A stretch of DNA of 64,000 bases from a virus, in the IMG/VR virus record IMGVR_UViG_3300047089_000152, positions 1-64,000 of that record. One strand, given 5' to 3'. Positions 1 through 24,027 of the stretch are shown one piece after another. Each line of letters opens with the position of its first letter. The stretch's first letter is position 1. Below the pieces are notes generated by a model that was not told the origin of the DNA, ran no database searches, and worked only from the letters and a program-made list of their open reading frames with translations. The translations under genes and the position numbers were made by a program.

Positions 1-115
1 GGTGTGGGTGGGTGGGTGGTGACGTGGGTAGGTGGGTGATGTGTGAGTGGGTGTGTGAGGTGAGTGGGTGTAGTGGGTAGGGTGGGCATGGAGTGTGGGG
101 TGGTGTAACGTAAAG
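1..115. repeat. G/T-rich low-complexity tract at the left edge
   Basis: The plus strand is nearly all G and T, with GTGGGTGGGTGG-type runs near 5-20 and repeated GTGGGT units. Several GGG runs lie close together, so a G-quadruplex on the plus strand is possible. No gene is visible. Whether this is a genome end, an origin or simple low-complexity DNA cannot be told, because the window starts here. Confidence 0.7.
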
Positions 116-144
116 TAGTTGTGGATTGGTCTAGACCGGTGGTC

Positions 145-354
145 TGACCTGGCACTATGACGGTACGTGCACAGCTGTGACCTGGCCTTATGTACGTGAC
201 GTGGGTCACACTGCGTCATGTGACTGGTGTGACTGGTGAGGCGATTAGATATAGCATTCGATGCCTCGCTGGCCATGTCACGCTGTGTCACTGTTGATCA
301 TGGGCTGACCTGGCCTTATGACAGTGCGTGACATGGCCTTGACCTGGGCATACG
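145..354 (+). repeat. Short direct repeats TGACCTGGC(C)TTATG
   Basis: Copies of TGACCTGGCnnTATG start at 145, 178 and 306, followed by a GTRCGTG-like stretch; a looser copy (TGACCTGGGCATACG) starts at 340. They lie between the G/T-rich edge and the first promoter at 391. Spacing is irregular, so they look more like protein-binding sites or promoter parts than a minisatellite. No gene is seen in 116-432. Confidence 0.6.
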
Positions 355-390
355 CGCATAACCGCAGGTCAGAGGGGGTGTATACGGCCA

Positions 391-406
391 TGGTACGATA
401 GAGGTA
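391..406 (+). promoter_or_regulatory. Extended -10 promoter TGGTACGATAGAGGTA
   Basis: TG-G-TACGAT (-10 at 394-399) followed by AGAGGTA matches the motif repeated before many genes at 30-46 kb. It stands 34 bases before the first gene and may drive the long plus-strand block. No clear -35 is seen. Confidence 0.55.
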
Positions 407-432
407 GTTCACGTTCCGATCGGAGGTTGGTT

Positions 433-834
433 ATGGATACGCACACAACGCGCGACACGGTTACCGTCACGCTGGTAAACGTCAAGTGCGCATGTGACGA
501 GTGGGTCATGTGCCCCACCCATGAGGCACAGAACGACGCAGTCGTGGCAGGTCAAGACATGTTCACGACCATGATGGGTGAGGCTGGCATCACCCGCATG
601 GCCAGGCACTACCGCACGTACCGTAGCGAGGTTGCTGCGGCCGGTAGCTTGGACGCTCAGTTGGAGCGGTACGAACTGTTTACGGCCATGGTCTCGGAGC
701 GTCCGTGTACCGCTCCGATTGACCCCATGGCTCGTAGGTGGAATCGGACGCGCACCGCGCGTACGGCTCCTGCCGACGCTAGCCTGACCGACAGTCCGGT
801 TGCCGTGACCGACCGCAGTAAGCGCACCTGGTGA
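433..834 (+). CDS. Hypothetical protein, 133 aa
   Basis: ATG 433 is chosen because CGGAGG at 421-426 sits six bases upstream; an in-frame TTG at 427 is too close to that site. The N-terminal third has a CxC...CxxH pattern (VKCACDEWVMCPTH) that could bind metal. The C-terminus is rich in Arg, Thr and Ala and looks disordered. First gene of the plus-strand block, followed by a perfect hairpin. Family not recognised. Confidence 0.7.
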   Translation: MDTHTTRDTVTVTLVNVKCACDEWVMCPTHEAQNDAVVAGQDMFTTMMGEAGITRMARHYRTYRSEVAAAGSLDAQLERYELFTAMVSERPCTAPIDPMARRWNRTRTARTAPADASLTDSPVAVTDRSKRTW

Positions 835-843
835 ATCCCGGTT

Positions 844-874
844 TGACCGGCCACGTCTCGGACGTGGCCGGTCA
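844..874 (+). terminator. Perfect 14-bp hairpin between genes
   Basis: TGACCGGCCACGTC at 844-857 pairs with 861-874 across the loop TCG. No T-tract follows, so it may be an RNA-stability or processing hairpin rather than a classical terminator. Confidence 0.6.
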
Positions 875-923
875 TGCTGGCAGTCATCCGACCGTCAGTT
901 CCCCGATTCCTTTTGGAGGAATC

Positions 924-1334
924 ATGTCAGAGTCCACCGACACCACAACCACGATCGATGCTGAGCAGTTCGCTCAGTTCCAAGCGTTCCAGGCAAAGCA
1001 GGCCGCTGACAAGGCTAAGGCTGAGGCTGCCAAGGTCGCGCGCAAGCGTGCGAACAACCGGCCGCTCGACGCTTCCGGTGAGGAAATGCCCGCTGGACAG
1101 TCCTACGTCAAGATTCAGGCCGACTACCTGGCCGCCGTGCTCGACGTCTACCAGAACGACCCCGACTCGCTGGTCAGGTCACTGACCGACGTCCTGCTCC
1201 CCACCATGCAGCGTGTTGCGCATGCCCCCCGGCTCGCGCAGGCCAGCACCTACGATCAGGAGCGCAAGGTCATTCTGGCCGGCTCTCCTCCGGAGGGTAC
1301 GCTGCCCGTCCCTACCCCGAAGTCCGGCAAGTAG
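924..1334 (+). CDS. Hypothetical Ala/Lys-rich helical protein, 136 aa
   Basis: ATG 924 follows TTTTGGAGGAATC. Residues 1-50 are low-complexity and helical (DAEQFAQFQAFQAKQAADKA), likely a short coiled coil; the middle is more ordered. Its N-terminal pattern D-A-x-Q-F/Y-A-E/Q-F resembles the start of the SprT-like protein at 2895, which suggests a shared helper segment. Abundant short proteins of this kind occur early in actinophage genomes, but the role is unknown. Confidence 0.7.
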   Translation: MSESTDTTTTIDAEQFAQFQAFQAKQAADKAKAEAAKVARKRANNRPLDASGEEMPAGQSYVKIQADYLAAVLDVYQNDPDSLVRSLTDVLLPTMQRVAHAPRLAQASTYDQERKVILAGSPPEGTLPVPTPKSGK

Positions 1335-1342
1335 TCACCCCG

Positions 1343-1379
1343 CTAGGGTGGGGCACCGTGACACGGTGCCCCACCCTAG
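1343..1379 (+). terminator. 16-bp hairpin after the 136-aa gene
   Basis: CTAGGGTGGGGCACCG at 1343-1358 pairs perfectly with 1364-1379 (loop TGACA). No T-tract. The rest of 1335-1500 holds only a TTGACA at 1401-1406 without a convincing -10. Confidence 0.6.
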
Positions 1380-1500
1380 GTCGACCGCGTGTCCCGTGTT
1401 TTGACAGTCACGGTCGGGCATCGGCACCTTACGTCCTATGGTGCGTGTCCGACCGTGGCTGTAGATGCACGTTCATCCAACCCGCATGGAGGTATCCGTT

Positions 1501-1695
1501 ATGTCCACCGACCCGACCGACCTGTCGGAACTGACCGACCTGTCGGAAACTCAGACGGGTCGGTGGCATCGCACTGTGTTCGACATTCTCATCCGTGACG
1601 AGATTGTCGCGCACCAGATTGTCGACTACCTGCCGGATGGCACGGTGGAATCCCGGACTGTCCAGCGCTGCAATCCGTGTCGCTGCTGGCAGTGA
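1501..1695 (+). CDS. Hypothetical protein, 64 aa
   Basis: ATG 1501 with GGAGG eight to ten bases upstream. The N-terminus repeats TDLSEL/TDLSET, from a duplicated CGACCTGTCGGAA in the DNA. The C-terminus ends in RCNPCRCW, with three cysteines in six residues. Stands alone between two hairpins. No family recognised. Confidence 0.65.
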   Translation: MSTDPTDLSELTDLSETQTGRWHRTVFDILIRDEIVAHQIVDYLPDGTVESRTVQRCNPCRCWQ

Positions 1696-1708
1696 CACGT
1701 CCTGACTG

Positions 1709-1744
1709 AATCCCCGCAACCCGCGTGGTTTGCGGGGATTTTCG
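1709..1744 (+). terminator. Intrinsic terminator
   Basis: AATCCCCGCAA (1709-1719) pairs with TTGCGGGGATT (1730-1740), followed by TTTTC. One of the few hairpins in the left block with a T-run. Confidence 0.75.
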
Positions 1745-1782
1745 TCGTCGTCCCCAACCTCACCTGTGGAGGTGAATCCGTA

Positions 1783-1953
1783 ATGTCTGAAAATCCCCTG
1801 CGTGTCCTTGTCGCTGCTGGTGATCAGGATGCGCGTCGGCTCCTGGCCGACGTGCCTCGCATGGATACGCGTACGTGGCCGCGTTGGCTGCGCGAGCGTC
1901 CGATCGGCTGGGAAGGTGCCCAGCAACAGCAAATCGTCCGGTGTGCGTCGTGA
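1783..1953 (+). CDS. Hypothetical protein, 56 aa
   Basis: ATG 1783 follows GTGGAGGTGAATCCGTA. An amphipathic start (ENPLRVLVAAGDQDARRLL) is followed by a Trp/Arg-rich part (RTWPRWLRERPIGWEG). Its stop codon overlaps the GTG of the next gene in a GTGA, showing translational coupling. Unknown function. Confidence 0.6.
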   Translation: MSENPLRVLVAAGDQDARRLLADVPRMDTRTWPRWLRERPIGWEGAQQQQIVRCAS

Positions 1954-2180
1954 ACGCCAAGTCGTGCACCGCTGGTATCAGCGTTTGTGACGGTAGCTGT
2001 AACCGGGAGTGGGTGCAGATCACCCCGTCGGGGTGGTGGGCGACGTGGTTGTCGTGTCAAGACGGTGGCCAGGTCATCAGCGGTTCCGGTGTGACGTACA
2101 CGGGTACTCTGCCTGACGGTCGCACGGTCGCGCGGACATTCGACGGTCGAGAGTGGACCCAGGTTCGGGTGCGTGCGTGA
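1950..2180 (+). CDS. Hypothetical Cys/Trp-containing protein, 76 aa
   Basis: GTG 1950 overlaps the upstream stop (GTGA). The protein has three N-terminal cysteines (KSCTAGISVCDGSC), then WWATWLSCQDGG and a beta-rich C-terminal half of alternating Gly/Thr/Val, suggesting a small beta-sheet domain. The stop overlaps the next ATG (TGATG). Family not recognised. Confidence 0.6.
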   Translation: MNAKSCTAGISVCDGSCNREWVQITPSGWWATWLSCQDGGQVISGSGVTYTGTLPDGRTVARTFDGREWTQVRVRA

Positions 2181-2560
2181 TGCCCGCCCCGACGCTGGCC
2201 GACGCGTACCTGGATTTGCGTGTGTCGCTGGCCGACGCGCGTGACGAGTACAACATGGCTCTCATGCGTGCGAAACGTGCCCAGGACCGGGACGTGCGTA
2301 ATGCTCACCTGCGGTGGTCGACCGCGTGTAAACGGGCGCGTGACGCAGCCCGGAAACGCCGTGCGTGGCGTGCGAAACTGCGCGGGTTCGACGACGCTCA
2401 GCTAGCGCAGCTGTCCGGGACTATCCAGTGGAATCTGGGACCCGGAAATGCTCTGCGCCGCACACCTGAAGATTCTGCGCGTGACACCCAGAACCTGGCG
2501 ATGGTACGCGCGGAGATTACCCGGCGGTGTGAGAACCCAGGATCGGAGGTGATTCTGTGA
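2180..2560 (+). CDS. Hypothetical Arg/Ala-rich helical protein, 126 aa
   Basis: ATG 2180 overlaps the previous stop. Residues about 5-75 form an almost unbroken charged helix (LADARDEYNMALMRAKRAQ, then KRARDAARKRRAW), likely coiled coil and nucleic-acid friendly through its basic charge. The next gene starts on this gene's TGA. Unknown function. Confidence 0.65.
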   Translation: MPAPTLADAYLDLRVSLADARDEYNMALMRAKRAQDRDVRNAHLRWSTACKRARDAARKRRAWRAKLRGFDDAQLAQLSGTIQWNLGPGNALRRTPEDSARDTQNLAMVRAEITRRCENPGSEVIL

Positions 2561-2781
2561 TATCTGCCCTTGTGCATGAGTGTGTCTCAACCCGGGCTGC
2601 GTGTAACCGCGCGGATGTCCGTGAACGTCTGCGGCTCCGTGAACCCAGGTTCGCTGCGCAGCTTGACTACGCGGTGCGCGCATTGACGTGCATCCACCCG
2701 GGTTTGTTCGCGGCTTACCCACCCAACGCGACGGAGCATTGCTGGTATTGCAACCAGGATGTGCCGTACACCGAATTGTGA
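2557..2781 (+). CDS. Small Cys protein, 74 aa
   Basis: GTG 2557 overlaps the upstream TGA and has GGAGGT six bases upstream. The C-terminus carries CWYCNQDVPY, a CxxC pair typical of half a zinc ribbon; other Cys/His residues (HEC, CN, CIHPG) could complete a site. Directly followed by stem-loop A1. Confidence 0.6.
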   Translation: MISALVHECVSTRAACNRADVRERLRLREPRFAAQLDYAVRALTCIHPGLFAAYPPNATEHCWYCNQDVPYTEL

Positions 2782-2782
2782 G

Positions 2783-2868
2783 AACGCTACGGCAAGCGCC
2801 GGGGCATCCCAACCCAGTACGGGGGCGGGGATGCCCCGGGGTGTGCCGCATCGTGGCATAACCCAGGA
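2783..2868 (+). ncRNA. Family A stem-loop, copy A1
   Basis: Starts right after the stop codon with AACGCTacGGCA. A 12-bp stem pairs 2799-2810 with 2828-2839; beyond it GTGTGCCGCATCGTGG lets GGCA pair with TGCC as a short outer stem. Similar flanks recur at 4742, 5023, 5836 and 6160 with different stem sequences. Role unknown: terminator, RNA-processing site or translation control of the next gene. Confidence 0.6.
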
Positions 2869-2894
2869 TCAAGAAAAGTTCGGAGGTGACAATC

Positions 2895-3524
2895 GTGGAA
2901 GTTGATGCTGCACAGTACGCGGAGTTCCTGGCATACCAGTCCGGTGAGGCTGCGCGTGAACAGGAACGTGTAGCCGCCCAGTGGGCGGCGTGGGCCGGGC
3001 AGGTCGGCGGTGAGCCGTGGAAGATAGGCCGGGCGCATGACTTGGCGGTCGCGTTGATGGCCGACCATAGCGTGTCCGCGTGGACCCTGAAATTCGGGAA
3101 TGCGCTAAGGAAAGACGGTTCGGTCCATTACCTGCACAGGCCAGGTAGCCGCATGTGGGACGGGAAGCCCGGGACGCTCACGCTGTCCGGGCCGCTGATG
3201 TCGCTGTGGACCGCAGAGCAGCAGCGTGAAACGATCCTGCATGAGATCGCTCACATCATGTGCCCGGACAACGGCCACGACGCAGTGTGGGGATACCACT
3301 GCGCCCGGCTGGGTATCGAACCGCGTACCTGCTGGGACGAATCCCGGATGGCGTCTGCGCCGCCCGTGAAACAGCGTGTGCGCCCGTGGGTGGGTACGTG
3401 CAAAGGCGGGCACGCGCACAAGCCGCGTGCCCGTAAGCCGACCGCGCGGTATAGCTGCGCTGCGTGCAGCCCGGGCCGGTTCGACCCGGGTGCTCTTGTC
3501 ACGTGGGCGCTGAGGTCGCCGTGA
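2895..3524 (+). CDS. SprT-like zinc metalloprotease
   Basis: GTG 2895 lies eight bases after CGGAGG; an in-frame GTG at 2886 overlaps the Shine-Dalgarno. The 209-aa protein contains LHEIAHIM (HExxH zinc-protease motif, about residues 118-125) and a downstream GHDAVWGYH that supplies the third histidine, as in SprT/Spartan proteins. A C-terminal CAAC pair (about 194-197) fits the family's zinc ribbon. SprT-like proteases cut DNA-crosslinked proteins in cells; the phage substrate is unknown. The first 40 residues are an extra helical segment resembling the start of the protein at 924. Confidence 0.8.
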   Translation: MEVDAAQYAEFLAYQSGEAAREQERVAAQWAAWAGQVGGEPWKIGRAHDLAVALMADHSVSAWTLKFGNALRKDGSVHYLHRPGSRMWDGKPGTLTLSGPLMSLWTAEQQRETILHEIAHIMCPDNGHDAVWGYHCARLGIEPRTCWDESRMASAPPVKQRVRPWVGTCKGGHAHKPRARKPTARYSCAACSPGRFDPGALVTWALRSP

Positions 3525-3682
3525 AATGCGGGAAGCTGTGCTTCGCGACGGCAAGCCAGGCACGCGCGGCGATGCGTAAGGTACCAACCGATGCTAACGG
3601 CAGGTTCCCCACGCACGTGTACAGGTGCGGGCAGTGTAAGGCGTGGCATTACTCCAGCAGCAAACAGCGGAGGCGACAGTGA
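3521..3682 (+). CDS. Mini zinc-ribbon protein, 53 aa
   Basis: GTG 3521 overlaps the SprT stop in a GTGA. MKCGKLCF at the start and YRCGQCKAWHY near the end give two cysteine pairs, the layout of a small zinc ribbon; the tail is basic (SSSKQRRRQ). Probably a DNA- or RNA-binding accessory protein, translationally coupled to its neighbours. Confidence 0.65.
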   Translation: MKCGKLCFATASQARAAMRKVPTDANGRFPTHVYRCGQCKAWHYSSSKQRRRQ

Positions 3683-3900
3683 TGATCCCGATGGAATCCG
3701 ATGGATGGTGGGTACCCGTGAAACCTCGCAGGAACGAGGTAGCGAACCCGTCGTGTGAGTGCGGTCACGCGCAGGACGGGCACTGGCGGCGGGGCGGTTT
3801 CTGCCTGCGGCTGCATGCCCTGTATAAGGGTGCGCCCCTGTGCGGGTGCAGGCAGTTCACCAGGCGTGCCGCACCGGCCGTATCAACCCGGGGAGGTTAG
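3682..3900 (+). CDS. Small Cys/His protein, 72 aa
   Basis: ATG 3682 overlaps the previous stop (TGATG). Contains PSCECGHAQDGHW and later CLRLH and CGCRQF, a CxCGH...H...C...CxC series consistent with a metal site. The same CxCGHxxxxH start occurs in the 50-aa protein at 46131. Function unknown. Confidence 0.6.
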   Translation: MIPMESDGWWVPVKPRRNEVANPSCECGHAQDGHWRRGGFCLRLHALYKGAPLCGCRQFTRRAAPAVSTRGG

Positions 3901-3902
3901 CC

Positions 3903-4346
3903 ATGACAGCGGAGACAGCTCAGCCTGTAGTGCACCTGTCGTTGTTCTGCAAGCTCCAGTTCGTCCACGATCAGGATCGTGGACACCGGCAGTGTTCGGG
4001 TACGTGCGACGGTCACGGTTCCGGGATGCCATGCAGGCGGCGGTGCGCGTGCGTGTGCCACGCGCGCGGACAGAATCCCGAACAGATCACCCGCGAGTCT
4101 TTCCTGTCGCTGGTTCACGGTGAGCTGGAATCGTGGCTTCCGCGTGAACCCCGAACCCGTACGTCGTGGTGGATGTTCGTGCAGGAGATCGCCGCTGCCC
4201 GGTTCAACGCGGCGTACGCGGAGGATTTCCCGAAGGAACGGGACCCGCAGGAAGTAGCCGCTATGCGCGCGGAACGCGGGCGCGGACGTGAAAGCCTGCG
4301 GCCGGGTGACAGGGCCTCAACGAGGCAGGTCCCGCCCAAGGAGTAA
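3903..4346 (+). CDS. Cys-rich N-terminal domain protein, 147 aa
   Basis: ATG 3903 after GGGGAGGTTAGCC. Residues 15-60 hold a dense Cys/His cluster (CSGTCDGHGSGMPCRRRCAC, then VCH), likely binding one or two zinc ions. The second half is helical with conserved-looking WWMFVQEIAAARF and a charged tail. Unknown function; the largest of this run of Cys-rich proteins. Confidence 0.65.
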   Translation: MTAETAQPVVHLSLFCKLQFVHDQDRGHRQCSGTCDGHGSGMPCRRRCACVCHARGQNPEQITRESFLSLVHGELESWLPREPRTRTSWWMFVQEIAAARFNAAYAEDFPKERDPQEVAAMRAERGRGRESLRPGDRASTRQVPPKE

Positions 4347-4480
4347 CCCCCTAGACGCGGGCGGGGATCTGGTGGCTGTGAATAATCCCTGGTACGCGCC
4401 CCCATCGTGTCCGGGGGCGGAGGTTAGCCCCAGTTCCCCGCCCGTCCACGCAGTTTTCACCCCAGGAAAGGTATTTAGTC
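4347..4480 (+). other. Structured intergenic region
   Basis: CGGGCGGGGA at 4358-4367 can pair with TCCCCGCCCG at 4435-4444, enclosing a second 7-bp hairpin (CGCCCCC 4397-4403 with 4413-4419). It precedes the membrane-protein gene, whose AGGAAAGG site follows. A leader structure or terminator is possible; no gene is convincing here. Confidence 0.45.
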
Positions 4481-4918
4481 ATGTCGAAGGACAGGACCAA
4501 GGATGGTCCCAGCAGCGTCGACGACTACCGGTGGCGGGTAACTGTCCGTAACAACGTTACGGGGTTGCTGCGTGAATACCGGGTAGCAGCCACGTTGATC
4601 GCGTTGGCGTTCTGCGTGATGGTCACGGCTGTCGTGGCGTTCCCTGACAGTTTCGCCGGGCCGTTTCTGTTCCTAGCCGGGTACGGCATAGCCGTGTCCG
4701 GTTTTATCAATTTCGCGATACGTGAACTCGGCACGTTACAGAAACGCTGCGGCACAGCTGGGCACCGCCCATCACGCGCACTGATTCGTGGTGATGGGCG
4801 GTGCCCAGGTATGCCACATCGGTGTATCAATCCAGGGGAAGGAACCCCGTGTTTCGTCACCCGCTTATCGGCAGCGCCGACCCTGTCCAGGACGTGCGGT
4901 TCGTCGGTGTGCTCGTAG
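4481..4918 (+). CDS. Two-helix membrane protein with read-through tail
   Basis: ATG 4481 after CAGGAAAGG. Two hydrophobic segments (VAATLIALAFCVMVTAVVAF and AGPFLFLAGYGIAVSGFINF, about residues 35-55 and 60-80) make a small inner-membrane protein. The reading frame does not stop where family A element A2 begins: the position of the TAG seen before copy A3 is CAG here, so 60 more residues are translated through the hairpin and into the next gene. The tail therefore looks acquired by stop loss, not functional design. Confidence 0.65.
   Translation: MSKDRTKDGPSSVDDYRWRVTVRNNVTGLLREYRVAATLIALAFCVMVTAVVAFPDSFAGPFLFLAGYGIAVSGFINFAIRELGTLQKRCGTAGHRPSRALIRGDGRCPGMPHRCINPGEGTPCFVTRLSAAPTLSRTCGSSVCS
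4742..4835 (+). ncRNA. Family A stem-loop, copy A2
   Basis: Flanks AACGCTGCGGCAC and GGTATGCCACATCGGTGTAT enclose a perfect 18-bp stem (4758-4775 with 4791-4808). GGCA and TGCC pair outside it. It lies inside the extended frame of the membrane protein and ends ahead of GGGGAAGGA, the ribosome-binding site of the next gene. Confidence 0.65.
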
Positions 4919-5022
4919 AATCCGCCCTCGTATGCAGATGCGGCGGGGAGCCCACCGTGACTCTACCTGGCCCGGACGGCGACCTGCATGTCTGTAACGA
5001 GTGTGCTACTCGTCTCGTCTAG
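4849..5022 (+). CDS. Mini zinc-finger protein, 57 aa
   Basis: GTG 4849 has GGGGAAGGA six bases upstream. LVCRCGGEP and LHVCNECATRL give CxC...CxxC, a probable zinc ribbon. Overlaps the last 70 bases of the extended upstream frame. Followed immediately by copy A3. Confidence 0.6.
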   Translation: MFRHPLIGSADPVQDVRFVGVLVESALVCRCGGEPTVTLPGPDGDLHVCNECATRLV

Positions 5023-5095
5023 AACGCTGCGGCACGCGGGGCGCAGCCCGAACCCTGCACCGGGTACGGGCTGCGCCCGGTATGCCACATCGTGT
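5023..5095 (+). ncRNA. Family A stem-loop, copy A3
   Basis: Begins on the upstream TAG with AACGCTGCGGCAC; a 12-bp stem pairs 5039-5050 with 5067-5078; GGTATGCCACATCGTGTAT closes it. This copy shows the normal stop position relative to the element. Confidence 0.65.
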
Positions 5096-5129
5096 ATGCC
5101 GAATTCAACACTGCTCATCGGAGGACCCC

Positions 5130-5483
5130 GTGAAAATCAGGAGCCTGCTCATCGCCGGTACGATGCTGGCCGGAACCCCGCTTGGTTTCGCTGCGCTGGC
5201 CAGCCCCGCGGACGCGGCTGTCGTGTCCTGCTCGACTATCCACACGGACAAGACGTCGACCACGTCGACCGGGTCGTGGTCCCACACCGTCACGAACGAG
5301 AACAAGTGCGGCCGGGACTACGACAAGTGGACTGTGCGGATCTCCCACTCCTACACCGGCGCGCACTCCGTCACCCACACGTACAGGGACGAGGACTACC
5401 CGCGGTACAACCAGACCGCGGTCCGGGACTCCTGGTCCAAGACCGGCCGTTACACCCACACCGTGACCGTCACCGTCGGCTGA
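5130..5483 (+). CDS. Secreted protein, 117 aa
   Basis: GTG 5130 with CGGAGG seven bases upstream. Residues 1-30 are a signal peptide: MKIRS, a hydrophobic core, then SPADAA for cleavage. The mature part of about 87 residues has two cysteines (VVSCST and NKCGRDYD) that may form a disulfide, and it is rich in Thr, Ser, His and Tyr with alternating polar/apolar beta pattern. Exported from the host cell after infection; it may act on the envelope or block superinfection, but no family was recognised. Confidence 0.7.
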   Translation: MKIRSLLIAGTMLAGTPLGFAALASPADAAVVSCSTIHTDKTSTTSTGSWSHTVTNENKCGRDYDKWTVRISHSYTGAHSVTHTYRDEDYPRYNQTAVRDSWSKTGRYTHTVTVTVG

Positions 5484-5490
5484 CAGCGTG

Positions 5491-5536
5491 CGGCCCCCGG
5501 ATCACTCAGGAGCGAACCGTGCCGATCCGGGGGCCG
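5491..5536 (+). terminator. 13-bp hairpin
   Basis: CGGCCCCCGGATC (5491-5503) pairs with 5524-5536 over a 20-base loop. No T-run. It does not carry family A flanks. Confidence 0.55.
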
Positions 5537-5565
5537 CCGCATCACCACATCTGAGGAGGTGAAAT

Positions 5566-5835
5566 ATGCTCACCAGGCATTTTTACGCGCGTCGGCTCCG
5601 AGCCCACTTCGACGACGAGGCACACGCCAGGACTTCGATGCTCGCTTCTTACTGCGACTGGTGCGCCGGCAGGCGGCAGGTTCGTGTCGTTGTGGACGGG
5701 CAAATCAGCGGGCAGGCTTGCTACAACCACCTATCCCGGGTGATGTACGAACTCATACAGGCAAATCCAGGTGTCGCAGTGCACCCCGAATTCAAGGAAA
5801 CTAAGCGGCCACCCAGACCAGTCATCGTCAACTAG
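5566..5835 (+). CDS. Hypothetical protein with CxxC, 89 aa
   Basis: ATG 5566 follows GAGGAGGTGAAAT. Contains SYCDWCAGRRQVRVVVDG, a CxxC knuckle leading into beta strands, then a helix with ACYNHLSRVMYELI. The pattern resembles a small zinc ribbon plus helix. Function unknown; followed by copy A4. Confidence 0.65.
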   Translation: MLTRHFYARRLRAHFDDEAHARTSMLASYCDWCAGRRQVRVVVDGQISGQACYNHLSRVMYELIQANPGVAVHPEFKETKRPPRPVIVN

Positions 5836-5925
5836 CACGAACGACAGGCGGGGAGCCGCCCGGGTGAGCCATATCGCCCGGGCGGTTCCCGGTATGCCGG
5901 ATCGGTGTATCAAACCAAGGAAAGG
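5836..5925 (+). ncRNA. Family A stem-loop, copy A4
   Basis: Diverged left flank (CACGAACGACAGGC), a 14-bp stem with one G-U pair (5851-5864 with 5877-5890) and the typical right flank GGTATGCCGGATCGGTGTAT. GGC/GCC outer pairing is kept. Confidence 0.6.
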
Positions 5926-5933
5926 AGCCGGTT

Positions 5934-6161
5934 ATGGCTAGGGCCACAGGTACGAAGCGCACCGAGCCGATGCCCGCGCACAGGCTGCTGGCCGCACTCA
6001 TCAGGGCGATGGAGGCGGGCGTGGACAACCAGGAAATCCTCATGGCCATGAGGTTCGCCGACAGGGCCGAGGGTGTGAAGCAGTCCCCCGTGTGGGGGAT
6101 GGTCACCGACGACATGAACGCAGCCGCCGACAAGATGAACGCGCTGCAAGACCCCACGTAA
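5934..6161 (+). CDS. Hypothetical helical protein, 75 aa
   Basis: ATG 5934 after GGAAAGGAGCCGGTT. Predominantly helical (AHRLLAALIRAMEAGVDNQE, later DDMNAAADKMNALQ), acidic to neutral, no cysteines. No domain recognised. Confidence 0.65.
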   Translation: MARATGTKRTEPMPAHRLLAALIRAMEAGVDNQEILMAMRFADRAEGVKQSPVWGMVTDDMNAAADKMNALQDPT

Positions 6162-6258
6162 CGCTGAACGGCACGCGGCGTGCCACCCGGTCCCACCAGA
6201 ATGTGCAGTGGGCCCCGGGTGGCACGCGGTACGCCGGGTCGGTTGTGCCACAGGTTAA
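6160..6258 (+). ncRNA. Family A stem-loop, copy A5
   Basis: ACGCTGAACGGCAC and a right flank ending TCGGTTGTGCCACAGG enclose a 12-bp stem (6179-6190 with 6215-6226). The next ribosome-binding site (AAGGAAGGAG) follows directly, as in copies A2 and A4. Confidence 0.6.
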
Positions 6259-6272
6259 GGAAGGAGACAGTC

Positions 6273-6413
6273 ATGCCCAGGTTTTCGTACATGGTGGTGT
6301 CCGCTGTCTTGGACGACCATGTATCAGATGAGGAAGCCAGACGGACCGTCCGGGACATTCTTGGCCCGGACTACGTCGTGACCGAAGGGATTGTCGATGA
6401 GCCAGCAGCTTAA
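6273..6413 (+). CDS. Hypothetical protein, 46 aa
   Basis: ATG 6273 follows AAGGAAGGAGACAGTC. Short alpha/beta-like sequence (MPRFSYMVVSAVLDDHVSDE, then helix EARRTVRDILG). The next gene overlaps its last 17 bases. Unknown. Confidence 0.6.
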   Translation: MPRFSYMVVSAVLDDHVSDEEARRTVRDILGPDYVVTEGIVDEPAA

Positions 6414-6570
6414 CCTCCGGTACAACGCCGAGGTTGAACGTACAGGTGAGGACCCTTCCACGCAGAACTACATCACGTACTCGGCGGCAGCGACGCTGCT
6501 CCGGTCCCTGCGTGAAGGTGACGCCGCCGTCTTCAACGCCGTCGCCGGGCCGGGCGCGGACGAGATCTGA
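6397..6570 (+). CDS. Hypothetical protein, 57 aa
   Basis: ATG 6397 lies inside the end of the preceding gene; AAGGGATTGTC provides a weak ribosome site. Sequence has a beta-like start and a helical middle (SAAATLLRSLREGDAAVFN). Stop overlaps the next ATG. Confidence 0.5.
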   Translation: MSQQLNLRYNAEVERTGEDPSTQNYITYSAAATLLRSLREGDAAVFNAVAGPGADEI

Positions 6571-6725
6571 TGCCAAGGTTCGTGGTCCTGGATTGTGAGA
6601 CAGGGCATCGCAGGGCGTGTCATTCTCGCCCGTGGCGGATCTGGAGCATCACGTATTGCGTATGTGACTGCCACGCGTGGTGGTCACGGAAAAGGAGAAG
6701 GAAACATGCCAAGGACGAGAACTGA
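6570..6725 (+). CDS. Small Cys/Trp-rich basic protein, 51 aa
   Basis: ATG 6570 overlaps the upstream TGA. VVLDCETGHRRACHS, then WSITYCVCDCHAWW and a basic tail KRRRKHAK: five cysteines and three histidines, plausible metal binding. Its last 20 bases overlap the next gene. Translation is inferred from coupling only. Confidence 0.45.
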   Translation: MPRFVVLDCETGHRRACHSRPWRIWSITYCVCDCHAWWSRKRRRKHAKDEN

Positions 6726-7065
6726 CCCTGTGATGGTCCACCTGGAAAACTACACGTACAAGCCACGCGACGAAAAGGTGAACGAGCCGCTGGTTGATCA
6801 CATGCGCAGCGACCACCCGTCAGCGTGGGCCCGTTGGATGGTGGGTGACACGCTGGGTGACATCGAAGACCAGCATTACATCGAACACGGGAAGCTGACC
6901 AGCGAAGCTGAGATGGCCCGGGAGATCGAAGCTGACAACCGACGCGAACAGATCCCCAGCGACCAGTGCCCGCGTTCCGCGGAATGCGACTGTCGGCCGG
7001 GCGCATGCAGCATGCTCGACGCGTCCGTCGCCCGGCACCCCGCCGGTAAGAACAGGAGCATGTGA
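6706..7065 (+). CDS. Hypothetical protein, 119 aa
   Basis: ATG 6706 with AAAAGGAGAAGG upstream. The N-terminal 40 residues are beta-like; a helical middle (SAWARWMVGDTLGDIEDQHY) is followed by CPRSAECDCRPGACS, four cysteines in a loop. Unknown function. Confidence 0.65.
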   Translation: MPRTRTDPVMVHLENYTYKPRDEKVNEPLVDHMRSDHPSAWARWMVGDTLGDIEDQHYIEHGKLTSEAEMAREIEADNRREQIPSDQCPRSAECDCRPGACSMLDASVARHPAGKNRSM

Positions 7066-7370
7066 TGCAGCAGGTTCCGCAAGACACAGTGACACGCGTC
7101 GTCGTCGGTGACGACTTCTACGGGTACCGGATGCCGGTCCCGTCGGAGTTCACCCCGGACCCGATGGCAGACCTGGACGAGAAGTGGTCCGTGCTGGAAG
7201 GCATCGGGATCCCGCGTCGCGACGAAACGACACCGCTGCGTGCGTGGCGGGATGCGGTAGCCGACGAGACCGGTGTGCCCCGCGCGCAGCTGGACACCGA
7301 ACAGGGGGGTGTCCTCGACCTGGGGTTCACACCCATGTACGTCCGCACGTTCGTCCTGTTCCTGGCCTAA
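7065..7370 (+). CDS. Hypothetical protein, 101 aa
   Basis: ATG 7065 overlaps the previous TGA; AGGAG is nine bases upstream. Starts beta-rich (DTVTRVVVGDDFYGYRMPVP), then a helical segment with WRDAVADETGVPRAQL. No motif recognised. Confidence 0.6.
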   Translation: MQQVPQDTVTRVVVGDDFYGYRMPVPSEFTPDPMADLDEKWSVLEGIGIPRRDETTPLRAWRDAVADETGVPRAQLDTEQGGVLDLGFTPMYVRTFVLFLA

Positions 7371-7373
7371 GCC

Positions 7374-7487
7374 ATGTCTTCAAGGCGTAAGGCCATCAGG
7401 AACCTGAAACGGTGGAACAGGTACTTCTCGCATTACCGCGGGCATGTGCCCACGCCAGGTTTCTGGCGGGCTTTCAACCGCACGTGA
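7374..7487 (+). CDS. Very small basic protein, 37 aa
   Basis: ATG 7374 lies four bases after the preceding stop. Sequence is Arg/aromatic rich (SSRRKAIRNLKRWNRYFSHY, then GFWRAFNRT). Net charge strongly positive; could bind nucleic acid. Supported only by frame and spacing. Confidence 0.45.
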   Translation: MSSRRKAIRNLKRWNRYFSHYRGHVPTPGFWRAFNRT

Positions 7488-7522
7488 CATCATCGCGCGC
7501 CCGGCGCGTAATCCGGGCATAT

Positions 7523-7599
7523 GCCACTGGCACATGGCGCCGGCCTCGTACGTGGGTATTTGCCCCTGGGGTGCAGCTGTTCGATCCAGCTAGGTGGCA
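7523..7599 (+). other. tRNA-like fold, probably not a tRNA
   Basis: GCCACTG at 7523-7529 can pair at six of seven positions with AGGTGGC at 7592-7598. A perfect 5-bp T-arm with a TTCGATC loop lies at 7575-7591, and overall length fits a tRNA. The D arm is not canonical and the anticodon stem keeps only three pairs, with no T at the position before the anticodon; no CCA follows. Confidence 0.25.
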
Positions 7600-7602
7600 C
7601 GA

Positions 7603-7658
7603 ACCGGGCGCGCACGATCTCCGTGTTAACAGCACGGCATCTCACGTGCGCGCCCGGT
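7603..7658 (+). ncRNA. 14-bp hairpin before the 88-aa gene
   Basis: ACCGGGCGCGCACG at 7603-7616 pairs perfectly with 7645-7658; the 28-base loop contains a smaller CCGTG/CACGG hairpin. The ribosome-binding site AAAGGAGGA follows 15 bases later. The architecture resembles families A-C but the flanks differ. Confidence 0.55.
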
Positions 7659-7685
7659 CCCCACATAGAACGAAAGGAGGACAGC

Positions 7686-7952
7686 ATGGCCGACAAGATC
7701 GTGGACGGCGAAACCTATGACTGGTCCACGGAAAGAACCGGTGGCGGGCGGACCGCTAAGGGGTATACGAAGTACCTGCATCTCCTCGACGGGAAAGCCC
7801 GTGAACTCGACATCTACGACTACGGGCACACGAACCCGGTCAACTTCCTGATCGCGCTGCGGAGGGTCGCGCGTGTGCACGGTCTCGCCGCCAAAACCAA
7901 GGTTGTGGACGACCACACCGTCGCATTCCAGATCACCGGGAGACGTAAATGA
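7686..7952 (+). CDS. Hypothetical protein, 88 aa
   Basis: ATG 7686 after AAAGGAGGACAGC. Compact alpha/beta pattern: KYLHLLDGKARELDIYDYGH, a helix (PVNFLIALRRVARVHG) and a final strand. No cysteines. Stop overlaps the next ATG (ATGA). Unknown. Confidence 0.65.
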   Translation: MADKIVDGETYDWSTERTGGGRTAKGYTKYLHLLDGKARELDIYDYGHTNPVNFLIALRRVARVHGLAAKTKVVDDHTVAFQITGRRK

Positions 7953-8353
7953 ACGCGTCCGTGTTCGACGCGATCCGGGTCGCGCAGGACCTGACCACAC
8001 CGGACTCCACGAACTACGAATACATCCGCGGGCAGGCAGACCTGATCTGTCACCTGTTCGGCCTGTCCACGGACGAGTGGCGGGACGAGGTGATAGCGGA
8101 GATCAGGCAGCAGTCCGGCAAGTACGTGAATGTGGAGCCCGTCCGGGAGCCTTTGAACGTGACCATCACGCCGGATGCGCGTGATCGGATACGCGACCTG
8201 CACAAACCCAACACTGACCTGTCACCTACGCCCTACTGCACCAACGCGAACGGCATCCCGGGTAACCACAGGGACGTAACGGCGTGGCCGTGTGTGGTGA
8301 TAACGCTCCTAGAAGCGCTGGAAGCCGCAGAGAAACAGCTAAGCCTCGACTGA
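7949..8353 (+). CDS. Hypothetical protein, 134 aa
   Basis: ATG 7949 overlaps the upstream stop. Contains LSTDEWRDEVIAEIRQQ, close to AEEWRDEIAY in the protein at 18079. The C-terminal half (NANGIPGNHRDVTAWPCVV, then a helix) is unlike anything recognised. Confidence 0.6.
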   Translation: MNASVFDAIRVAQDLTTPDSTNYEYIRGQADLICHLFGLSTDEWRDEVIAEIRQQSGKYVNVEPVREPLNVTITPDARDRIRDLHKPNTDLSPTPYCTNANGIPGNHRDVTAWPCVVITLLEALEAAEKQLSLD

Positions 8354-8370
8354 AAAGGGGATACAGGCAA

Positions 8371-8688
8371 ATGGAAAAGAACACTGAACTGGCATACGAG
8401 ACGCTGGACTACATCCGCGAGCACCCCGAGGAATGGGACCAGAATCAGTTCGTCTGCGGTACTACAGCGTGTTACGCCGGGCGTGCCGCGCTTATCAGCC
8501 TGGGACTTCAAAACCAGTCCCAGTACCATGAATACCGGATAAATAACGGCTTCGACACCGAAGCGATCGCAACGCGTGCGCTCGGCTGGACCAAACAGGA
8601 AGCCTCTCACGTGTTCTACAGGTTCACGAAGGACTTCGCGGTGCTGGAACGCGCCGTCAAGGAAGTACTCAACGGTGAGGTCCACTGA
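8371..8688 (+). CDS. Hypothetical protein, 105 aa
   Basis: ATG 8371; AAAAGGGG lies upstream. Helical throughout with a conserved-looking core CGTTACYAGRAALISLG and WTKQEASHVFYRFTKDFAVL. The CGTxxCxAG pattern is typical of an actinophage hypothetical family I cannot name. Followed by a hairpin. Confidence 0.65.
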   Translation: MEKNTELAYETLDYIREHPEEWDQNQFVCGTTACYAGRAALISLGLQNQSQYHEYRINNGFDTEAIATRALGWTKQEASHVFYRFTKDFAVLERAVKEVLNGEVH

Positions 8689-8704
8689 ACCTCCGGTGAC
8701 ATTC

Positions 8705-8744
8705 AGCATCGCCACCCGCCCCCGTCCGGTCGGGTGGTGTTGCT
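8705..8744 (+). terminator. Hairpin ending in TTGC...TGCCAGCCGG
   Basis: 8705-8718 pairs with 8731-8744 with one mismatch (AGCATCGCCACCCG against CGGGTGGTGTTGCT). The downstream TGTGCCAGCCGG recurs after a similar stem near 18110-18155, so this may be a fourth, two-copy family. Confidence 0.5.
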
Positions 8745-8786
8745 GTGTGCCAGCCGGTGCGCAAACGATAGAAGGGAGGGGCAGTT

Positions 8787-9275
8787 ATGCCCCACCGATT
8801 TGACCCGTTCGGGGTGGACGAACCAGGAGACCAGGAAGAGGAAACGCTCCGCCGCCTCGACGCGAACCTGCTTGGCGGCGGCCCGCTGCCGCCGCGTGGG
8901 ACGATCGAGCAGTTCATCCAAGCTGCGGGCATCGTCGGCGACGGTGAGCAGATCCAGTTCATCGGGATCGCTGTCGGTGTCTCCAGCATGCCGGGCGTAG
9001 CCGGGCGTTCCCTCTCGTGGGATGCGGGTGACCCGCTGCCGCACACGTCACGGACGTTCGACGACCCGCCGTTCGCGTACACACCGTCCGAGTGGCGGGA
9101 CATGCTGATCCGGGGGGTCAGCCTGGCTGAGGACGAAGACGATTTCACGTTCGACCTGAAAGCGTCCCTCGGCCAGGACATGATCCACTCGCATCACGTC
9201 CCCGTCGACACGGCGATCGACGGGTGCGGCGAGTTCGCCGCGTGGCTGTGGTCCGAGTTCCGTACGGTGCCGTGA
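8787..9275 (+). CDS. Hypothetical protein, 162 aa
   Basis: ATG 8787 with GAAGGGAGGGG upstream. Acidic, proline-containing N-terminus (DPFGVDEPGDQEEE), then a mixed alpha/beta body with WRDMLIRGVSLAEDEDDFTF and CGEFAAWLWSEF near the end. Unknown; coupled to the next gene by TGATG. Confidence 0.65.
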   Translation: MPHRFDPFGVDEPGDQEEETLRRLDANLLGGGPLPPRGTIEQFIQAAGIVGDGEQIQFIGIAVGVSSMPGVAGRSLSWDAGDPLPHTSRTFDDPPFAYTPSEWRDMLIRGVSLAEDEDDFTFDLKASLGQDMIHSHHVPVDTAIDGCGEFAAWLWSEFRTVP

Positions 9276-9487
9276 TGGTGCTCAGGCCGAAAGAACGTGA
9301 GATCAGGGTGCGTGAGATACGCAACACGCTGCTGATCGCCACGCGGGCGCAGACACCGAGCGGTGCGCTGAAGCTTCTACGTGAGGCCGCGGATCAGCTG
9401 ACCGTACTGCTCAAGCTGGAAACGGGAGGAGAGACAGCGAACGAGGCGGACGGGAACGTACGGGGAGCGCACGCAGCGCAGCCGTGA
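9275..9487 (+). CDS. Hypothetical helical protein, 70 aa
   Basis: ATG 9275 overlaps the upstream stop. Two charged helices (KEREIRVREIRNTLLIATRA; ALKLLREAADQLTVLLKLE) and a Gly/Ala tail. Could dimerise. Unknown. Confidence 0.55.
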   Translation: MVLRPKEREIRVREIRNTLLIATRAQTPSGALKLLREAADQLTVLLKLETGGETANEADGNVRGAHAAQP

Positions 9488-9759
9488 AAGGTAAACGGTG
9501 TCCTGACTGCGGCCAGCCTATGACCCGGTATGTTACTGGCTGGAAGTGCATGAACGTCAAGGCGCACGCCAAGTCGCTCCGTAACCCGAACAAGGGTGCT
9601 GCCAGGAATCCCCGCGGTGTCAACCAGACCGCACAGAAGAAACCGTCCAAGGGCAGGTACGTTCTGACAGACTGCCCGAACTGTGAGAACGGTCAGCGTC
9701 TGAACCCTAAACGGTGCACACTGTGCAAGAAGCGCGGACGGGTCTGGACGATTAAGTAG
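9484..9759 (+). CDS. Double zinc-ribbon protein, 91 aa
   Basis: GTG 9484 overlaps the previous TGA (GTGA). Two cysteine modules: CPDCGQPM...WKC at residues 5-25 and CPNCENG...CTLCKKRGRV at 65-88, separated by a basic linker. The second resembles a DnaJ-type or rubredoxin-like knuckle. Probably nucleic-acid binding. Followed by stem-loop B1. Confidence 0.7.
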   Translation: MKGKRCPDCGQPMTRYVTGWKCMNVKAHAKSLRNPNKGAARNPRGVNQTAQKKPSKGRYVLTDCPNCENGQRLNPKRCTLCKKRGRVWTIK

Positions 9760-9762
9760 CAG

Positions 9763-9830
9763 CATCCTGCCAGGAGGAGCGTGCAGGTCCACAATGGACC
9801 TGCACGCTCTGCTTGCCAGAGAGGCAGCAT
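9763..9830 (+). ncRNA. Family B stem-loop, copy B1
   Basis: CATCCTGCCAGGAGG, then a perfect 14-bp stem (9778-9791 with 9795-9808, loop CAA), then CTGCTTGCCAGAGAGGCAGC. The right flank can itself fold as TGCC/GGCA. Four further copies follow up to 15.1 kb, each with a different stem. Confidence 0.65.
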
Positions 9831-9852
9831 CAACTAGGAGTTTGAGATAGTC

Positions 9853-10428
9853 ATGAACATCACAGAACCGCCGACCACACCCATCGCGACGTTGCCGCCG
9901 AGACCAGACCATCACAACCGTAATCGTGTCCTCGCAGGCGCGGGCGCGGTCGTGGCGCTCGTGATCGGGATCGCTGTCGGTGCGTCAGCTAGCGGCACTA
10001 CCACCGTTACCAAGCCCGTTCCCGGTCCGACAATCACCGCGACACAGACGGTTGCAGGTCCCACGCCGACCGTCACGCAGACGACCCATGTCAAGGTCAC
10101 CCAGACAGTCAACGTGCCGCCGCCCGCGCTGACCGTGGCGTCGTACCACGGTACGGGTAGCTGGAACAGCCCGCAGTTCAACGTGTCCGACGGTGCGGTG
10201 CTGACCGTCCGGTTCTCCTACTGGAACAACACCAGCGGGTACGGCGGTGACAACTTCATCGCCGACATCGTGTCCAGCGGCGACAACTTGTCGCTCGCCA
10301 ACGACATTGCCGTCTCCGGTGGTAAGACCACCACGGTGTATCCCGACACCAGTCTCGGTGGCAGCAACCTGTACCACCTGGAAGTGCAAGCGACCGGTCC
10401 CTGGTCGGTCACCATCAGCTCCAACTGA
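9853..10428 (+). CDS. Membrane-anchored surface protein, 191 aa
   Basis: ATG 9853; only a weak TAGGAG site upstream. A cytoplasmic proline-rich start, one transmembrane helix at about 28-48 (VLAGAGAVVALVIGIAVG), a Thr/Pro stalk at 50-95, and a C-terminal beta-rich domain (GTGSWNSPQFNVSDG to GPWSVTISSN). This is the layout of actinobacterial type II membrane proteins with an outside domain. A role in superinfection exclusion is possible but is only inference. Confidence 0.7.
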   Translation: MNITEPPTTPIATLPPRPDHHNRNRVLAGAGAVVALVIGIAVGASASGTTTVTKPVPGPTITATQTVAGPTPTVTQTTHVKVTQTVNVPPPALTVASYHGTGSWNSPQFNVSDGAVLTVRFSYWNNTSGYGGDNFIADIVSSGDNLSLANDIAVSGGKTTTVYPDTSLGGSNLYHLEVQATGPWSVTISSN

Positions 10429-10430
10429 AT

Positions 10431-10506
10431 CCCTGGCAGGAGGAGGGGACACGCGCGCTCTGACCGGTGGTGCGCGTGTCCCCTCTGCTTGCCACGGAGG
10501 CACAGC
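10431..10506 (+). ncRNA. Family B stem-loop, copy B2
   Basis: CCTGGCAGGAGG, a 13-bp stem (10444-10456 with 10472-10484), then CTGCTTGCCACGGAGGCACAGC. The left flank is CCTGGCAGG rather than CCTGCCAGG. Confidence 0.65.
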
Positions 10507-10519
10507 AGAAAGGACAACC

Positions 10520-10834
10520 ATGATGAGCAAGAGGACACGTTTGATTGCTGCTGGTGTGCTCGCAGCGTCCGCGTTGACAGCAGGCTGTTCCAGCCCGCAG
10601 CTGAAAGACCTCGGCGGGACCGGGCAGGCGAACCCCGACTACATCATCACATACCTGAACGTGTCAGAGTTCCCGAACATAACCCTGGTCTGCATCAAAG
10701 GCGTCGGGTTCGCGACCACAACCCGCGACTATGAGCCGCTCACCAGGATCCCCCAGTGGGACGCTTTCTGCGCCACGAAGGAACCAGCGAGCGGTCAGCC
10801 GATACCGACGCAGAGTCCTGCCACCACCGGCTGA
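10520..10834 (+). CDS. Lipoprotein, 104 aa
   Basis: ATG 10520 (or 10523), with AAAGGACAACC upstream. A basic start, hydrophobic core and lipobox ASALTAGC place the mature N-terminus at Cys of CSSPQ. The mature 80 residues contain two cysteines (LVCIKG and AFCATK) that may be linked, and a Pro/Thr tail. Such phage lipoproteins sometimes block DNA entry of related phages; that is inference. Confidence 0.7.
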   Translation: MMSKRTRLIAAGVLAASALTAGCSSPQLKDLGGTGQANPDYIITYLNVSEFPNITLVCIKGVGFATTTRDYEPLTRIPQWDAFCATKEPASGQPIPTQSPATTG

Positions 10835-10847
10835 GGAGAACACGCAC

Positions 10848-11213: not shown

Positions 11214-11215
11214 GC

Positions 11216-11311
11216 ATCCTGCCAGGGAGAACACGCCCAGGCACGGCCCGCGCTTGCTAGCGGCTTGCACGGTACGGGTCTGGGCGTGTTCTTCTTGCCA
11301 GAGAAGCAGCG
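11216..11311 (+). ncRNA. Family B stem-loop, copy B3
   Basis: ATCCTGCCAGGGA, a 12-bp stem (11229-11240 with 11280-11291) closing a 39-base loop, then TTCTTGCCAGAGAAGCAGC. The largest loop in the family; it could hold further structure. Confidence 0.6.
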
Positions 11312-11329
11312 GACACGAAACGAGGAATC

Positions 11330-11835: not shown

Positions 11836-11863
11836 CCCGCTGGGCGGCGGTAGAAGAGGAGAA

Positions 11864-11992: not shown

Positions 11993-12014
11993 CCGGTCCT
12001 GATCTGCGCATTAC

Positions 12015-13725: not shown

Positions 13726-13785
13726 CTGCCAGGAAGGTCCCGCCCAGGCGCACGCGGCCTGGGCGGGGCCTGCTCGACAGGAATC
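13726..13785 (+). ncRNA. Family B stem-loop, copy B4
   Basis: CCCTGCCAGGAA, a 14-bp stem with one G-U pair (13736-13749 with 13757-13770), then CTGCTCGACAGGAATCAGC. The right flank has diverged from TTGCCAG. Confidence 0.6.
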
Positions 13786-13841
13786 AGCAAGTCTGCCCTA
13801 TGCCACTCATCAGGGGCTTCACAAGGAGGAGAAACAAGACA

Positions 13842-15009: not shown

Positions 15010-15080
15010 TCCTGCCAGGAAGGGCCACCGCATCGCTGTGTGCGCTGTGATGCGGTGGCCCTGCTTGCCAGGAGGCAATC
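15010..15080 (+). ncRNA. Family B stem-loop, copy B5
   Basis: TCCTGCCAGGAA, a perfect 13-bp stem (15022-15034 with 15049-15061), then TGCTTGCCAGGAGGCAATC. Last copy of this family. Confidence 0.65.
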
Positions 15081-15102
15081 GCATGCGAAGTGAAAGGAAA
15101 AC

Positions 15103-17646: not shown

Positions 17647-17714
17647 CTGGCCGCTGGCCGTGCCACCCAAAGCGAAACTCTGGGTGGTGCGGGGAACGTC
17701 CAGTTCGCGAAGAA
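17646..17714 (+). ncRNA. Family C structured element, copy C1
   Basis: An outer stem ACTGG (17646-17650) / CCAGT (17700-17704) and an inner stem GCCACCCA (17662-17669) / TGGGTGGT (17681-17688) flank an internal loop made of CCGCTGGCCGT on the left and GCGGGGAACG on the right. The loop strands match copies at 21768, 22545 and 23964 while both stems differ in sequence. Confidence 0.6.
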
Positions 17715-21750: not shown

Positions 21751-21767
21751 AGAAGGGAACAAGAGAC

Positions 21768-21834
21768 TTGATCGCTGGCCGTGGCACCCCACCGGATATG
21801 GGGGTGCTGCGGGGAACGATCAACCGACGTTCCA
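21768..21834 (+). ncRNA. Family C structured element, copy C2
   Basis: Outer stem TTGATC (21768-21773) / GATCAA (21818-21823), inner stem GCACCCC (21784-21790) / GGGGTGC (21801-21807), conserved loop strands GCTGGCCGTG and GCGGGGAAC, then ACGTTCCA. A TACACT (-10-like) follows at 21841-21846. Confidence 0.65.
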
Positions 21835-22407: not shown

Positions 22408-22544
22408 CCTGGTAGCCTCACCCGTCCTGCCCCACCTGAGACTCAGTCGGGGCGCCGGGTGTCGATGACCGGTTAACAACAGTGCCCTGCTCAAGGTCAT
22501 GGATAAGGCCGGAAGGGTGATTAGCCCCGACTGAATGCCAGCGC
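22408..22544 (+). other. Intergenic, no gene seen
   Basis: Contains a small CTGAG/CTCAG hairpin near 22438 but no supported open frame or promoter. Confidence 0.4.
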
Positions 22545-22610
22545 TGGCCGCTGGCCGTGACCCCCGCCCGGATTGCGCGGGCGGGGGTCGCGGGGAACGG
22601 CCAACGTTCC
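22545..22610 (+). ncRNA. Family C structured element, copy C3
   Basis: Outer stem TGGCC (22545-22549) / GGCCA (22599-22603), inner 12-bp stem GACCCCCGCCCG (22559-22570) / 22578-22589, loop strands GCTGGCCGT and GCGGGGAAC, then ACGTTCCA. Confidence 0.65.
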
Positions 22611-23948: not shown

Positions 23949-23963
23949 AACAGAAGGGATAGT

Positions 23964-24027
23964 TAGCCGCTGGCTGTGACGCCCGACCCTGGTATGGGCG
24001 GGCGTCGCGGGGAACGGCTACGTTCCA
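23964..24027 (+). ncRNA. Family C structured element, copy C4
   Basis: Outer stem TAGCC (23964-23968) / GGCTA (24016-24020), inner stem GACGCCC (23978-23984) / GGGCGTC (24000-24006), loop strands GCTGGCTGT and GCGGGGAAC, then ACGTTCCA. Confidence 0.65.

Follow-up and report, generated by a model that had tools for sequence, protein, structure and literature searches.

Intergenic RNA elements with two competing folds in an uncultured phage: candidate RNase III-type processing sites between genes

The window analyzed here is the first 64 kb of the 104,150-bp IMG/VR virus record IMGVR_UViG_3300047089_000152, from an uncultured phage. It carries five copies of an intergenic hairpin element, termed Family A, in which a variable main hairpin is enclosed by a short outer helix. 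In addition, the right flank can fold on itself into a second hairpin (HP2). The 5' arm of HP2 is the same strand as the right arm of the outer helix, and HP2 and the outer helix therefore cannot coexist. Two further families in the window, C and D, follow the same plan with unrelated sequences. The elements are tentatively interpreted, from sequence, as RNase III-type processing sites that would make separately protected single-gene messages. The five Family A copies are as follows.

2783..2863, + strand: Family A copy 1; outer helix left arm CGGCA at 2790-2794, main hairpin at 2799-2839, HP2 at 2840-2863 (GGUGUGCC..GGCAUAACC)
4743..4828, + strand: Family A copy 2; main hairpin at 4759-4807, HP2 at 4808-4828; inside the open frame 4481-4918
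5023..5100, + strand: Family A copy 3; main hairpin at 5039-5078, HP2 at 5079-5100
5836..5911, + strand: Family A copy 4; degenerate left motif, main hairpin at 5851-5890, HP2 at 5891-5911 (GGUAUGCCG-GAU-CGGUGUAUC)
6161..6249, + strand: Family A copy 5; main hairpin at 6178-6227, HP2 at 6228-6249 with one bulge

An earlier note on this DNA had reported five stem-loops at these sites, and all five are present, with copy 2 starting at 4743 rather than 4742. Its description of common flanks holds for most copies. Copies 2 and 3 have the left flank AACGCTGCGGCA unchanged, copy 1 has it with a single mismatch and copy 5 with 2 nt inserted, but copy 4 lacks it and has GCACGAACGACAGGC instead; the right flank TGCCACATCGGTGTAT is exact only in copy 2, with variants in the other four. 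These variants are not noise, because they keep the second hairpin paired. The GGCA/TGCC pairing proposed outside the main stem can indeed form. The main stems, about 12-20 bp, differ in sequence between copies as had been noted, but they are not unrelated: they covary, and they appear to share a common ancestry and to have drifted under selection for pairing.

The position of the elements relative to genes is also regular. In copies 1, 3, 4 and 5 the outer helix follows 10-11 nt after the first base of a stop codon, so the claim that each element starts at the upstream stop stands for these four. It fails for copy 2, which has no stop just upstream because the open frame 4481-4918 reads through the element; this frame either is a genuine fusion or reflects an error in the sequence or its assembly. 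All five copies end before the next ribosome site, as the note had said, with a Shine-Dalgarno site and start codon 33-47 nt downstream; the ribosome sites themselves vary (GGAGGUGACA, GGGGAAGGAAC, CGGAGGAC, AAAGGAGCCG and GGAAGGAGACA). The reported lack of a T-run was likewise borne out, with 0-4 T within 12 nt past the outer helix, and a terminator scan of the coding strand flagged none of the five copies, which have no canonical U-tract. The five intergenic regions fold with z-scores of -2.4 to -7.1, which together with the related copies in other phages described below puts the elements beyond chance. No Family A copy was found outside 2.8-6.3 kb in the whole record, and an Rfam search of window positions 1-12000 returned four weak matches, all far below the gathering score and none to a bacterial or phage family.

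Family A is conserved in two related phages. One, G003 (99,376 bp), was found by a tail-protein search; the other is represented by G009 and G008, found by AAA-ATPase alignment, whose overlap is 99.99% identical and which were counted as a single phage of ~119 kb. Gene order in G003 and G009 is largely that of the window, with ~70-80% DNA identity where the sequences can be aligned. Searched with a covariance model of the five window copies, G003 has one copy (E = 1.3e-9) and G009 has four (E = 7e-15 to 1e-5), so the flanks are kept in related phages, a point on which the earlier note had made its proposal depend. The covariance-model search gave no significant R1 matches in the distant tail-protein relatives G001, G005 and G007 or the AAA relative G012, and flank clustering gave no family of at least three members among the results listed. 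A DNA-level search of GenBank phages gave no match for the region, and single-protein searches with the SprT-like protein or the AAA-ATPase found no close relatives. The tail proteins of the window resemble those of Streptomyces and other actinobacterial phages, and an actinobacterial host is therefore likely.

The 10 Family A copies from the three phages (window, G003 and G009) were aligned with MAFFT, and the alignment is clean. Both sides change in 9 of the 12 main-stem pairs, and for the main-plus-outer structure 90% of cells are paired, with 22 double-change cells; shuffles, which leave the relatedness of the copies in place, give 7.5 +/- 2.1. The signal is lost when the partner strand is slid. 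Because main-stem pairs change on both sides, the main fold is, judging from this alignment, under selection for pairing. The outer helix CGGCA/UGCCG is nearly invariant, and it is set apart from the main stem by a mismatched stretch that is conserved and includes a G-U pair in 10/10 copies. Among the eight copies that have a nearby stop codon, seven have it 10-12 nt before the outer helix.

HP2 is present in 10/10 copies, its first base adjoining the main stem. With the 5' arm fixed and the downstream bases shuffled, pairing gives z = -7.5, and pairing is better within a copy than between arms exchanged among copies (permutation P = 0.004). Position 4 is A, C or G, with U, G or U as the respective partner. 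Controls came nowhere near the family values: non-family hairpins of the same genomes gave z = -0.8, -2.6 and -2.3 and regions upstream of family hairpins -1.3, -0.7 and +1.2; the HP2 5' arm was picked from the family consensus, and the non-family control used the bases directly after each stem. A direct pair count gives 67.8% of cells paired, which understates HP2 because the MAFFT alignment ignores its registers.

The two further families, C and D, are represented in the window by the following copies.

9764..9829, + strand: Family C copy; layout UCCUG.CAGG.main.CUUG.CAGGA
10428..10506, + strand: Family C copy; a pair replaces the C.C mismatch of the outer helix
11216..11313, + strand: Family C copy; weak HP2
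13727..13787, + strand: degenerate Family C copy; flanked by the AAA-ATPase gene and a gene with weak similarity to flavin/NAD oxidoreductases
15010..15082, + strand: Family C copy
17647..17710, + strand: Family D copy; outer helix AACUGG/CCAGUU
21766..21833, + strand: Family D copy; outer helix UUGAUCG/CGAUCAA, HP2 GGAACG..CGUUCC
22540..22610, + strand: Family D copy
23961..24026, + strand: Family D copy; outer helix UAGCCG/CGGCUA

For Family C, 97.1% of cells are paired across 11 aligned copies from the three phages, with 36 double-change cells against 9.4 in shuffles and an HP2 z-score of -5.0 (5' arm fixed). Family D has 25 double-change cells against 6.1 in shuffles, and both sides change in 4/6 pairs of its outer helix (UUGAUCG/CGAUCAA, CUGAUCG/CGAUCAG, CUGGUCG/CGACCAG), around a constant internal loop CUGG/GGAA (GGAG in one copy). 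Its HP2 is GGAACG/CGUUCC, with one compensated copy GGAGC/GCUCC (z = -8.6, 5' arm fixed). Another Family D copy, with outer helix CUAGCG/CGCUAG, occurs in a fourth phage contig, G015. A G-U wobble stands beside the mismatch in 10/10 copies of A, 11/11 of C and 10/11 of D. These wobbles, constant at fixed places, argue for pairing in RNA rather than in DNA and against a DNA cruciform or a protein-binding dyad. In all families the hairpins lie between same-strand genes, on the coding strand, between the stop codon and the ribosome site, with the start codon 18-52 nt downstream.

Pattern searches extended the survey beyond these phages. The Family A element pattern had four matches in viral contigs, all coding or chance; a looser pattern found 49 stretches, with the element layout only in G009/G008 and the rest resembling chance. 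In bacterial genomes the Family D pattern had 98 matches, none of them element-like, and these therefore give no evidence of a host origin. Integron attC sites, which also combine variable stems with conserved ends, were considered and set aside, as the R-site consensus was not visible by eye, with no integrase search made.

The three families occupy separate blocks of the window (A at 2.8-6.3 kb, C at 9.8-15 kb and D at 17.6-24 kb). The order A-C-D is the same in G009; C and D interleave in G003. In 28 cross-phage comparisons of adjacent genes, an element lies at the same junction in only four, which are two reciprocal pairs and so two junctions. At one of these, C12/C9, Family C precedes an orthologous oxidoreductase-like gene in both the window (the degenerate copy 13727..13787) and G009. 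At the other, C10/D6, downstream of an orthologous gene, the element is C in G009 and D in G003. Because elements are rarely kept at a junction, and one was swapped from C to D, they behave, on these comparisons, as modules. This fits the boundary or cassette idea of the earlier note, whose observation is confirmed and whose interpretation is partly supported; it had not foreseen that the right flank is a covarying hairpin competing with the outer pairing, the two further families or the resemblance to the layout in phage Estes described below.

If the elements are processing sites, each Family A copy would be a structured element on a polycistronic phage transcript, with its neighboring genes presumably co-transcribed. 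The long imperfect hairpin formed by the outer helix and main stem (about 20 bp or more) would be cut by RNase III or by another nuclease of double-stranded RNA. The cut would fall on the 3' side, within the mismatched segment, with the outer helix keeping the site double-stranded across it. The upstream mRNA would then end in the main hairpin, a guard against 3' exonucleases. Once the left flank is released, HP2 would be free to fold and to shield the downstream mRNA at its newly made 5' end, leaving the Shine-Dalgarno site open. One long transcript would in this way yield separately protected gene messages, and the elements could be swapped between junctions because they sit between genes and carry both of the needed ends.

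Several results weigh against processing. In Family A, clear covariation of HP2 is confined to a few positions, chiefly position 4 (A-U, C-G, G-U), because the 5' arm of HP2 has to match the left flank as well, and HP2 is weak in some Family C and D copies. An unconstrained fold prefers the outer helix in 24 of the 26 copies tested; HP2 would therefore form only after a cut, or with help from a factor or from a ribosome sitting on the left flank. A PF14622 search found no phage RNase III, so a host enzyme would have to act. Finally, processing leaves the occurrence of three sequence families in separate blocks unexplained.

In the leading alternative, the main hairpin would stop or pause the host polymerase after each gene, making the elements U-less ('I-shaped') terminators or partial attenuators. 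A strong, GC-rich hairpin directly past the stop codon suits this role, and mycobacteria mainly use hairpin terminators that lack a U-tail and lie within 50 bp of the stop codon (2025 review, PMC12288462). However, hairpins with T-runs do occur elsewhere in the window (1720 and 12015), a scan of positions 1-16000 limited to sigma-70 found no promoter-like site although the downstream genes would need one, and neither the outer helix nor HP2 nor the conserved wobble is needed for termination. Termination is on this evidence unlikely. Recognition by a trans-acting factor, such as a phage or host RNA-binding protein or an antiterminator, with A, C and D marking gene sets, would suit both the conserved mismatched segments between covarying helices, which suggest protein recognition, and the separate family blocks in the order A-C-D in the window and G009. 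It is rated as quite unlikely, given that no candidate factor was identified and that orthologous genes seldom keep their family, with C in G009 facing D in G003 at one junction, an arrangement ill-suited to gene-specific timing.

The near-fixed 10-12 nt from stop codon to outer helix in Family A suggests a translation-sensitive switch, in which a ribosome at the upstream stop would cover the left flank and favor HP2, an untranslated message would form the outer helix, and the resulting state would set the stability or translation of the next gene. The two states draw on the same strand and differ little in energy by an approximate calculation, in which the constraint for the outer state also blocks some 3' pairs, but the Shine-Dalgarno site lies outside the predicted helices in either state and copy 2 has no upstream stop, and such a switch seems improbable. 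Very improbable is the view that the elements are recombination boundaries like T4 PeSL cassettes, with flanks conserved mainly for gene swapping between phages: the elements are mostly unlinked from gene orthology, as it would have them, but covarying stems and constant G-U wobbles show that RNA pairing is selected, and recombination would not call for that. Parts of the processing interpretation and of these alternatives may be true together.

Known phage elements resemble these in part. In the cluster M2 mycobacteriophage Estes, stem-loops are reported upstream of the CR3 and CR4 repeats (PMC7953290). When Estes intergenic regions were folded, most consisted of an outer helix, a mismatch, a variable main stem, a second hairpin (for example UGCUG..CAGCA, GGUC..GACC or CUGUAC..GUACAG), CACGGAGAAGGG and a start codon. 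Folding z-scores are -2.2 or below in 11 of 12 regions and -1.1 in the remaining one; the second hairpin gives z = -7.3 across 11 regions, including one with a wrong anchor position. As at CR3/CR4 in cluster M (Estes and Aziz), the stem-loops described here stand between a stop and the next start, before the ribosome site; those of cluster M are in the non-structural right arm. The sequences are otherwise unrelated, and three families share one genome here, unlike in Estes. The strongest repeat is at the ribosome site in Estes (CACGGAGAAGGG) and in the flanks here; CACGGAGAAGGG was not found in the Family A regions, which thus lack this ribosome-site repeat. A likeness between the inner GGAGGAG..CUCUGCUU of Family C and GGAGGAG..CUCUGCUGU of Estes was seen by eye and is a lead only. 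On the minus strand of Estes (L245), intergenic regions before CR3 at 24198-31451 fold as a main and a second hairpin. Both Estes and Anaya carry an RtcB RNA ligase, which suggested a link to the elements, but RtcB was not found in G000, G003, G009 or G015, and the idea was dropped.

SAS/ESAS repeats of cluster K mycobacteriophages (PMC3203893) and cluster EF Microbacterium phages (PMC7302621) likewise stand upstream of a subset of starts, with function unknown. Cluster K ESAS are inverted repeats with a variable spacer, for which the authors find little support for mRNA hairpins, unlike the strong compensatory changes here. ESAS keep their 17-bp arms and vary the spacer, whereas the stems of Family A vary and covary, and Family A thus lacks the ESAS pattern. 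Anaya regions, folded for the cluster K comparison, look different from the elements here. The 13-bp SAS linked to ESAS, GGGATAGGAGCCC, does not occur at any of the Family A ribosome sites in the window. RNase III sites of the T7 early region are imperfect hairpins on a polycistronic transcript that is cut to mono- and dicistronic mRNAs, with a single cut near the 3' side at R1.1 (PMC4858673). The present elements are also imperfect hairpins between genes, for which cleavage is proposed from sequence, with T7 as the precedent. The T7 sites are not known to have an HP2 or family-specific flanks. T4-type PeSL are intergenic stem-loops that act as mobile regulatory cassettes, shuffling relative to genes, and they carry an early promoter. 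The elements here share the modular, shuffled arrangement, and the scan of window positions 1-16000 found no sigma-70-like promoter. In Streptomyces phage Moab (L249), many variable intergenic hairpins, for example at 34404-39143, are followed directly by AAGCTT(C/G)C, with no obvious HP2; they form a further hairpin family whose members share a right flank.

These comparisons suggest a possible, still doubtful, wider reading, in which actinophages that infect different hosts would share one general class of intergenic RNA module with two alternative states. Its sequence would be unrelated from one genome block to the next, but its layout of outer helix, variable main hairpin and competing HP2 ahead of the ribosome site would be constant, and a common host machinery would read it. 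Such a class would explain the cluster M intergenic repeats at once, and perhaps those of related clusters. Actinophage intergenic repeats (SAS, ESAS, CR1-CR4) have been on record since 2011 with no known function, and a strict two-helix RNA architecture in uncultured phages and in the cultured Estes makes them a testable question with predicted cleavage positions. Processing at these sites, if real, would show how many small genes can be given separate stability off one transcript, and the elements would offer compact, swappable insulator parts for actinobacterial genetics.

Further features were recorded in the window and its relatives. Downstream of copy 1 lies the following gene.

2886..3524, + strand: SprT-like protein gene (PF10263, 27.1 bits, cut-off 25.6)

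G009 is 119,391 bp long, with ~62 bp common to both ends. Because G008 spans that joint, the genome is nearly complete and either circular or terminally redundant. A block of imperfect direct repeats, with identities of about 73-88% and a spacing of roughly 210-410 bp, occupies G000 64659-65855. Window positions 1-120, where the contig begins, are low-complexity, GT-rich sequence. On the minus strand at 44693-46169 of the window, two long overlapping open frames, rich in Pro, Ser and Cys, consist of short ATGCC/CCATGC-like repeats and are probably repetitive DNA, not genes.
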